DNA of 64,000 bases, from positions 1 through 64,000 of the forward strand of contig CASEZJ010000010.1 in NCBI GenBank assembly GCA_949292525.1, in the 5' to 3' direction. The position numbers and the translations under genes were made by a program. Every line of letters starts with the position of its first letter. Position 1 is the stretch's first letter. This document shows positions 1 to 18,924 of this stretch, one piece after another. The stretch is from an uncultured bacterium (GTDB lineage: Bacteria; Bacillota_I; Bacilli_A; Acholeplasmatales; Anaeroplasmataceae). The notes beneath the pieces were generated by a model. The model was not told where the DNA came from. It saw only the letters and a program-made list of their open reading frames with translations, and made no database searches.

Positions 1-97
1 GATAATTTGTGTTCAATATAAATGTAGCGCCGTATACGGACCCGTACGTACGGTGCAATGGGAGGGAAAATAATTATTATATTTTCTCTACCCTATT
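1..97 (+). mobile_element. 3' end of a group II intron (domains V and VI), probably class C
   Basis: Two consecutive hairpins have the architecture of the last domains of a group II intron. Bases 27-34 (GCGCCGTA) pair with 49-56 (TACGGTGC) including a G-U third pair. A distal stem 35-38/43-46 carries a four-base loop, and a two-base CG bulge lies at 47-48: this is the domain V fold. The triad reads CGC (28-30), as in class IIC introns. Bases 60-71 pair with 81-93, leaving one unpaired A at 90, the expected domain VI branch point. With the usual 7-8 nt from branch point to splice site, the intron would end near 96-97. The reverse transcriptase and 5' end lie outside the window. A separate weak hairpin (113-119/126-132) follows. 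Confidence 0.82.
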
Positions 98-147
98 AGA
101 CCTAAAATTTGCTAGAAAATATAACTTTTCTAATTTATATTTTTAAC

Positions 148-176
148 TTGTAAATAGAAGAAAGTTATGCTATCAT
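148..176 (+). promoter_or_regulatory. pyr operon promoter
   Basis: TTGTAA (148-153), 17 bases, then TATCAT (171-176) fits a housekeeping sigma promoter. The start would be near 183, leaving a leader of only about 30 bases before pyrB. There is therefore no room for a PyrR-type attenuator or a pyrB leader peptide with terminator. Confidence 0.65.
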
Positions 177-214
177 ACTTTAGGTAAAAAAATAAGATTT
201 AGTGAGGTGTCCAT

Positions 215-3385: not shown

Positions 3386-6300
3386 AGAAAATAATGGTTA
3401 TTGGTTCCGGTCCAATTGTCATCGGTCAAGGTGCTGAATTTGATTATGCTGGTACTCAAGCATGTCTAGCTTTAAAAGAAGAGGGCTATGAAGTAGTTTT
3501 AGTTAATTCTAATCCAGCTACTATTATGACTGATACTAAAATTGCTGATAAAGTCTATATGGAACCTTTAGATTTAGAGAATGTTGCTAAAATAATACGC
3601 TTTGAAAGACCAGATGGTTTAATTTGTTCAATTGGTGGTCAAACTGGCTTAAATTTAGGTATGCAACTATACCGTAAAGGTGTGTTAGAAGAATGTCAAG
3701 TTGAATTACTAGGTACTGGTTATGATGCGATTAATAAAGCGGAAGATAGAGAATTATTTAGAAATTTATGTTTAGAAATTGGTGAACCAATACTAGAGAG
3801 TATTAATTGTAAATCAATTGAAGAAATAAAAGCCGCAGCCCTAAAGATTGGCTACCCTGTTATTCTACGTCCTGCCTTTACATTAGGTGGTACAGGTGGT
3901 GGTTTTGCAAATAGTGAAGATGAAATTATAGCTTTAGCAAAAAACGCCCTTAAATTATCTCCTGTTGGCGAAGTTTTAGTTGAAAAATCTATTAAAGGTT
4001 TTAAAGAAATTGAATATGAAGTTTTAAGAGATAAGAACGATACAGCTATTGTTGTATGTAATATGGAAAATGTTGATCCAGTAGGTATACATACTGGTGA
4101 TAGTATAGTTGTAGCACCAAGTCAAACCTTAACTAATAAAGAATATCAAATGTTAAGAAATAGTGCATTAAAAATTATAAGAGCCTTAGATATTGAAGGT
4201 GGGTGCAATGTTCAGTTTAGTTTAGATCCCTATTCATTCCAATATTATGTAATAGAGGTTAATCCCCGCGTTTCTCGTTCTAGTGCTCTTGCTAGTAAAG
4301 CTTCAGGATATCCAATAGCCAGAGTTTCAGCTAAAATAGCTTGTGGAATGCTATTAGATGAAATTGATATTGCTAATACGAAAGCTAGTTTTGAACCAAC
4401 ACTAGATTATGTAGTAACTAAAATTCCAAGATTCCCATTTGATAAATTTCAAACTGCAAATCGGCACCTTTCTACTCAAATGAAGGCTACTGGTGAAGTT
4501 ATGGCGATTGGGCGAACGATAGAGGAAAGCTTACTTAAAGCAGTTAGATCATTAGAAAATAAAGTTTACCATCTTTATTTGCCAAAGCTTAAATCATTAG
4601 ATAAAAAGGAATTGTTTGCATTTATTAAAGAGGAAAATGATGAAAGAATATTTGCTCTTGCTGAAGCATTAAGACGAGATGTAACTATTGATGATTTATA
4701 TCAAATAACTAAAATAGATAGATTTTTCTTAGAAAAAATCAATCATATTATTGAGCTAGAACGAACTATTTCTGAAGACCCACTAGCTCTAGATAATCTT
4801 AAACTAGCAAAGCGTTATGGTTTTTCTGATGAATATATTGCAATGCTAGCTAAAGTAACTCCTAAAGAGGTTTATGATTTAAGAGCTAAAAACAATTTAT
4901 TTCCAGTTTATAAAATGATCGATACTTGTGCTAGCGAATTTAAATCATATATACCATATTTTTATTCTACATATGAACATGAAAACGAAAGTATTAGAAG
5001 CAAGAAACAAAAAGTTGTTGTTTTAGGTTCAGGTCCAATTAGAATAGGTCAAGGTGTCGAATTCGATTATTCGACAGTACATGCCATTTGGGCTATCAAA
5101 GAAGAAGGCTATGAAGCTATTGTAATAAATAATAATCCTGAAACTGTTTCTACTGATTACACTTTATCAGACAAATTATATTTTGAACCATTAACCTATG
5201 AAGATGTAATGAATATAATTCATTTTGAGCAACCGATTGGTGTTATCGTAGCCTTAGGTGGTCAAACTGCCATCAACTTAGCTTCTGATTTAGAAAATAG
5301 TGGTATAAAATTAATCGGTGCTTCTGCTAAGGCGATTGATTTAGCTGAAGATAGAGAAGCATTTGAACAAATAATGAATAAATTAAATATTCCAATGCCA
5401 AGTGGTAAAGGTGTATTTAGTGTAGCAGAAGGTTTAGAAGAAGCAGATAAAATCGGCTACCCGGTATTAGTAAGGCCATCATTCGTTCTTGGTGGAAGAA
5501 TGATGCATATAGTTTATGATAAAGAAAATTTAGAAGCTTTTATAAAAGAAGCCTTAGATTATGATAATAGTCACCCAGTTCTAGTTGATAAATATATTAG
5601 CGGTCAAGAATGTGAAGTTGATGCTATCTGTGATGGTGAAGATGTGTTTATCCCTGGTATAATGGAACATATTGAAAAAACTGGTGTCCATAGTGGTGAT
5701 AGTATGAGTGTATATCCACCATATTCACTAAGTGAAGAAACATGCAAAGTAATCGCTTCTTATACAACTAAGATAGGTTTAGGTCTAAATTTAATTGGTT
5801 TATTTAATATTCAATTCATTGTTGAGCCTAATAACAAGGTTTCAATAATTGAAGTAAACCCACGTTCATCTAGAACTGTTCCATTCTTAGCTAAATCAAC
5901 AAATATTCCGATTGCCGGGATTGCAGCTAAAGTAATGTTAGGTGAAAAACTAAAGGATTTAGGTTATGTTGGTGTTTATCCTAACAGAAAACGTCATTAT
6001 GTAAAATCACCTACATTCTCATTTACAAAAATAAGAGGTTTAGATGCCGTTTTATCACCAGAAATGAAATCAACAGGTGAAGCAATAGGTTATGATAAAT
6101 CTTTAAATAGAGCTTTATATAAATCATTAAAGGCTAGTGGCTTAAGAGTTGCAAATTACGGCACAATACTTGCTACAATATCTGATGTTGATAAAGAGAA
6201 AGCTTTACCATTAATTAGAAGATTTTATAACTTAGGTTTCAATATTGTAGCTACTAAAGGTACAGCAACATTCTTAAAGAAAAATGGTATTAGAACCAGA

Positions 6301-13682: not shown

Positions 13683-13760
13683 GTTACGATTTACTTTGTT
13701 TTTCGTACCTCGACGAATTACTAGGTTTATCGCATATAATTTAAAAATATAGGAGGAAAA
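13683..13760 (+). promoter_or_regulatory. rpsO 5' leader, possible S15 autoregulatory RNA
   Basis: About 80 untranslated bases precede rpsO. TACGA (13685-13689) can pair with TCGTA (13703-13707), and CCT/AGG segments flank the following CGACGAATTACT. Many rpsO genes are controlled by S15 binding to a leader of this size, but leaders are not conserved in sequence, so assignment rests on position only. Confidence 0.35.
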
Positions 13761-13761
13761 C

Positions 13762-14031
13762 ATGGCTTTAACAGTTCAACAAAAAGCTGAAATCGTTGCT
13801 AAATATGGCAAGACACCTACTGATACTGGTTCAACAGAAGTACAAATTGCCTTATTAACTGCAGAAATTAATCAATTAAATGCTCATTTTGCTGTGCATA
13901 AACATGACTTCCATAGTCGTCGTGGATTAATGACTAAAGTTGGTCAACGTCGTAGTTTATTAAACTACTTACAAAAGAAAGATTTCAAAGCTTATCAAGC
14001 ATTAATTGCTAGTTTAGGTTTAAGAAAATAA
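13762..14031 (+). CDS. rpsO: 30S ribosomal protein S15
   Basis: Primary 16S-binding protein of the small subunit platform. The 89 residues are the exact usual length. Conserved features include [24 protein letters not shown] and the terminal [15 protein letters not shown] precedes the ATG. It is a single-gene unit with its own promoter and terminator. Arginine is mainly CGT, the codon choice of highly expressed genes in this window. Confidence 0.97.
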
Positions 14032-18677: not shown

Positions 18678-18706
18678 TTTACAACAAATAGTAATTGTGG
18701 TATTAT
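18678..18706 (+). promoter_or_regulatory. Promoter of the T-box valS unit
   Basis: TTTACA (18678-18683), 17 bases, TATTAT (18701-18706). Transcription would begin about seven bases later, at the foot of T-box stem I. Confidence 0.6.
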
Positions 18707-18712
18707 TTTAAG

Positions 18713-18924
18713 GAAAAGAAGGAGTAAAAATAATTTATTTTTAGAGATGATATGGTAGGTGCAAATATCAAATAATTATTTTGAAGGTAGTCTTTTAATT
18801 GTTTATGTGAAACTAAGTAGCTAAACCGTTTGCCGCGTTAAGGTTTAATTAAGTGCTAGTTTATTCTAGAATTAAGGTGGTACCACGGTTTTTCGTCCTT
18901 AGATTTATTCTAAGGACTTTTTTT
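18713..18924 (+). promoter_or_regulatory. T-box riboswitch, specifier GUA (valine)
   Basis: The T-box consensus AAGGTGGTACCACGG is at 18874-18888. Its bulge TGGT (18878-18881) matches a tRNA ending ACCA. The antiterminator can form by AAGG with CCTT (18897-18900) and ACG (18885-18887) with CGT (18894-18896). The competing terminator is GTCCTTAG (18895-18902) with CTAAGGAC (18910-18917) and seven T. In stem I, AAAAGA (5') pairs with TCTTTT after the specifier loop. That loop holds AGTA on the 5' side and GAAGGTAG on the 3' side, placing codon GTA (Val) at 18787-18789 before a purine. Uncharged tRNA-Val should therefore turn on valS. Confidence 0.92.

Follow-up and report, generated by a model that had tools for sequence, protein, structure and literature searches.

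Described examples of group IIC (class C) introns are B.h.I1, the intron of O. iheyensis and GsI-IIC. Introns of this class insert at intrinsic terminators and class C is without an endonuclease domain, as stated in a review (PMC4424553). The intron whose 3′ end opens the DNA described below shares with the group IIC introns matches to the models of domains D1-D4 and D5-D6, a GTGYG start, an RT/maturase in which no endonuclease domain was found, insertion sites lying a few bases past terminator hairpins, and many copies per genome. Nothing distinctive separates it from them, the interior of its RT being seen only in a sister species and not in the own assembly; it is an ordinary class C intron, one more copy of a type already known. 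Among gut Firmicutes, the intron RTs of Lactimicrobium massiliense and of Erysipelotrichaceae and Solobacterium metagenome-assembled genomes (MAGs) are 65-71% identical to its RT over nearly the whole length, and these introns occupy similar sites, but in other hosts and at other individual sites.

The DNA analysed, from here on the window, comprises positions 1 to 64,000 of the forward strand of contig CASEZJ010000010.1 (GCA_949292525.1), which is contig C10 of the own genome (G000), an assembly of 60 contigs. A sequence-only reading of its first bases had recognised the tail of a group II intron with domains V and VI, a CGC triad and a bulged branch A at 27-97, and had proposed a covariance search with the group II intron D5-D6 model. 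This search (RF00029 of Rfam, gathering score 40) gave a match at 25-96 on the plus strand with 45.5 bits (E = 9.9e-06 in the 64 kb searched), covering model positions 1-77 of 77, and the RNA fold of 25-97 has −30.0 kcal/mol (z = −5.09; 0 of 200 shuffles equally stable), which bears the reading out. In the alignment with the uninterrupted copy of sister species G002 (locus L033, see below), the open reading frame of that copy stops at 5478, which is window position 5; positions 1-5 (+) are thus the last bases of the frame of the intron-encoded RT/maturase, with the TAA at 3-5. The end of domain IV and the linker to domain V follow at 6-26 (+), between the stop and domain V and inside the repeated part of the intron. 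Domain V lies at 27-56 (+) with the CGC triad (C28-G29-C30) at 28-30, and domain VI at 60-96 (+) with a helix of 60-93, the bulged A90 and the 3′ end CTAT at 96. The earlier end at 97 was one base too far: since the seven own copies share ...CTAT followed by T and then diverge, and since an empty site in G002 continues with T, the intron ends at 96 and position 97 (+) is the first base of the 3′ exon. All seven own copies have a T here, and we infer that this base is likely IBS3.

We are confident, with little reservation, that the first 96 bases of the window belong to a class C (IIC) intron of about 1.9 kb, of which they form the 3′ end, and that the RT/maturase encoded by this intron has no endonuclease domain. 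The RT and the GUGYG 5′ end that the first reading wanted to see upstream were both found in G002, a species of the same genus whose pyrB is 93% identical. There the intron is uninterrupted (L033 3649-5570, 1,922 nt) and located between feoB and pyrB, the same place as that of the window copy; it begins with GTGTG, as do, outside the window, the copies at the own contig ends, and it matches RF02001 (D1-D4) with 99.3 bits and RF00029 with 45.5 bits. Its open reading frame encodes an RT/maturase of 438 amino acids (TIGR04416, 433.4 bits, cut-off 300), whose Pfam domains at E values up to 0.001 are PF00078 (RVT_1) and PF08388 (maturase) only; no endonuclease domain was found at that threshold. 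Among solved chains the protein is nearest to 7uim (363.8 bits), presumably also from a IIC intron, and to GsI-IIC 6ar1 (343.2 bits), whereas LtrA reaches only 164.8 bits. In all, 12 of the 41 own and related genomes contain RF00029 matches, 11 of them above the cut-off.

In the own genome, window 1 to about 98 is repeated at six other places with 97-100% identity, and the RF00029 search of the genome returns the same seven places. With the full G002 intron as query, 15 intron pieces were found, seven 3′ ends and eight 5′ ends, of which 14 lie at contig ends. The remaining piece is a 186-nt 5′ remnant inside contig C49 (G000:C49, L038), which stands behind a terminator and is followed by unrelated sequence. 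The 3′ copy on C2 includes an additional 236 bases on its upstream side, with the last part of the maturase/RT frame; it differs from the G002 copy at 8 of 333 positions. The intron interior, from about nt 187 to 1589, is absent from the own assembly, and a search with PF00078 found no intron RT there, C2 keeping only the C-terminal end of the frame. The only RVT_1 match of the own genome, a 520-amino-acid RT on C25 (G000:C25, L008 1252-2814), was considered as the intron RT and rejected: it has no Pfam match at E values up to 0.001, and in PADLOC it matches RT_UG31 best (DRT type, 233.7 bits), by which it would be a different, defence-type RT.

That only 96 intron bases are visible in the window could also mean that at the pyr site nothing but the tail of a degenerate group II intron is left and that the intron is dead there, and fragments do occur in the genus (the C49 remnant and a short copy, L032, in G004). 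Against this stands contig C32, which ends in the matching 5′ half of the intron behind the feo terminator, and the presence of the whole intron at this very place in G002. Along 1,503 bases that reach as far as the last base ahead of GTGTG, the flank on C32 is 88% identical to the feo flank of G002; the window is 91% identical to the pyr side of G002. Because the C32 flank is thus orthologous to the feo end of G002, C32 and the window are the two halves of one insertion, a join of C32 and C10 that rests on synteny with G002. Moreover, 6 of the 7 own 3′ ends stop within 2 bases of one common intron position, as expected for a collapsed repeat, with which the missing interior is likewise consistent. 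We therefore consider a dead fragment very improbable. The assembly probably broke at window position 1 because the intron is a repeat, and nothing upstream can be read in the window because contig C10 begins inside the intron.

In the short copy of G004 (L032, G004:C40, about 1413-1574) three stretches of the 1,922-nt form are present, namely nt 1-41, nt 205-237 and nt 1829-1920; it sits behind a terminator hairpin and looks like an internal deletion.

All eight own 5′ flanks contain a hairpin that ends 3-10 bases before the intron, and seven of these eight hairpins score above the 99th percentile of 3,000 random sites of the window; the exception, on C30, is in the top 4.5% (134 of the 3,000 score as well). 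At the feo-pyr site the hairpin is that of the feoAB terminator at the start of contig C32 (−16.7 kcal/mol), which adjoins the 5′ end of the intron. The sequence-only reading had hinted instead at a weak hairpin at 113-132 (+) of the window as the relevant terminator. We rejected this candidate, since it lies on the side of the 3′ exon, is weak (−3.9 kcal/mol, a value reached by 6 of 200 shuffles) and has no T-run after it. The intron's target lies on the 5′ side and is the feoAB terminator.

Among named relatives 148 loci were found and 80 kept; a 5′ end was recognised in 46 of the 80 and none in the other 34. For these 80 loci the stricter of two 5′-end patterns was used, the loose one having also caught places that are not introns. 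When the 42 distinct 5′ flanks were compared with 3,942 random sites, 37 had hairpins past the 99% point and 41 past the 95% point; a strong hairpin is absent from the 5′ flank of L146. With the looser pattern two more places, L145 and L156, appear as likely 5′ ends; their hairpins are weak, and they stand outside the stricter count. Mogibacterium pumilum has twelve intron loci (L115-L124, L133, L141) with one identical 5′ flank, counted as one among the 42. That these are introns nested in introns was rejected, as the identical unit is bounded on both sides by short N runs; it is probably an assembly effect, as would arise if gaps in the scaffolds had been filled with a consensus contig.

The order of the RT matches, the missing endonuclease domain and the position of the insertions after terminators agree with class C, which the first reading had held probable. 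Domains V and VI alone give no class, but that the intron belongs to class A or B, or that the domain V-like hairpin arose by chance, is scarcely credible in view of these three findings, of the seven repeats with a fixed end and of the Rfam score above gathering.

By the mechanism known from this family, the spliced intron RNA together with its RT would reverse-splice into DNA behind a terminator hairpin, a short IBS1 would serve, along with the +1 base, for recognition of the target, and copying would be primed from the replication fork. In G002 one exact empty site was found, in which the flank of C53 abuts the flank of C5 with no intron between; from it follow the limits of the intron, GTGTG...CTAT, and the T thereafter. 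The G002 counterparts of five other own 5′ flanks (C55, C41, the C49 remnant, C30 and C42) continue without an intron. For the flank of C1 no counterpart was found in G002, and its match in G003 is without an intron. The feo-pyr site is the only own insertion site shared with G002. The exact empty site and the five intron-free sites of G002 point to movement of the intron after the two species had split, as judged from these genome comparisons.

At the shared site the own genome and G002 have no differences in 94 + 96 bases of the intron ends, against 12% and 9% divergence in the flanks. This comparison is to be read with the caution that, where a repeat has been collapsed in an assembly, its contig ends necessarily display the sequence common to the copies. 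The feoAB terminator could have been hit separately in the two sister species, or the intron could have been transferred between them, overwriting an older copy; we regard this tentatively as the less probable course of events. Slow evolution of the intron ends may also explain the identity (G003 differs at 3 of 96 positions, its pyr region by 21%), and separate insertion, transfer and slow change of the ends are all possible for the feo-pyr copies.

Downstream of the intron, a promoter-like site was recognised by eye at 148-176 (+), with TTGTAA at 148-153, a spacing of 17 bases and TATCAT at 171-176. It begins 51 bases after the end of the intron, in agreement with the distance of about 50 bases to the pyr promoter given by the sequence-only reading. 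Since the intron lies upstream of this promoter, it need not belong to the pyr transcript. The first gene of the pyr operon is pyrB (215-1087, +), encoding aspartate carbamoyltransferase (NCBIfam NF002032, 331.5 bits, cut-off 263), and a CTTGTAA/CTTGTAT element is found upstream of pyrB in all eight genomes of the genus.

The pyrB leader of the window (97-214) has no match to the PyrR element (RF00515), and neither has that of G002. Matches were found in the pyrB leaders of G001, G003, G005 and G007, above gathering only in G003, and the same four genomes encode a PyrR protein above the cut-off of NF003549. A separate loop-pattern search of the leaders missed G007, which Rfam finds. In G000, G002, G004 and G006 neither RF00515 nor PyrR was detected, all their NF003549 matches being below 33 bits (cut-off 138). 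Among 25 genomes searched, 10 of the 10 with the RF00515 RNA also have the PyrR protein; G013, G030 and G031 have the protein without a match to the RNA. The CTTGTAA element is separated from the ATG by 68 bases in the own genome and 69 in G002 versus 131-156 in the other six. When the leaders were compared by eye (window 97-214, L053-L058 and L033), those of G004 and G006 were seen still to contain a terminator-like hairpin. In the own genome and in G002 the pyr operon appears to have lost the PyrR attenuator and the genome to have lost pyrR, with no evidence tying the loss to the intron.

Other RNA elements were also seen, in the window a T-box leader at 18702-18903 (110.5 bits) and a ribosomal S15 leader at 13701-13817 (45.5 bits), and in G003 a match to the fluoride riboswitch (L035 1020-1091, 47.3 bits).

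The parallel loss of pyrR and of the PyrR leader beside the intron adds a minor point on regulation. The intron probably explains why the contig breaks off at window position 1, intron ends making up 14 contig ends of the 60-contig assembly. Existing knowledge of group II introns is left unchanged by the window intron, which provides a clean case of a IIC intron that has spread behind terminators and for which one insertion site is exactly empty in G002.
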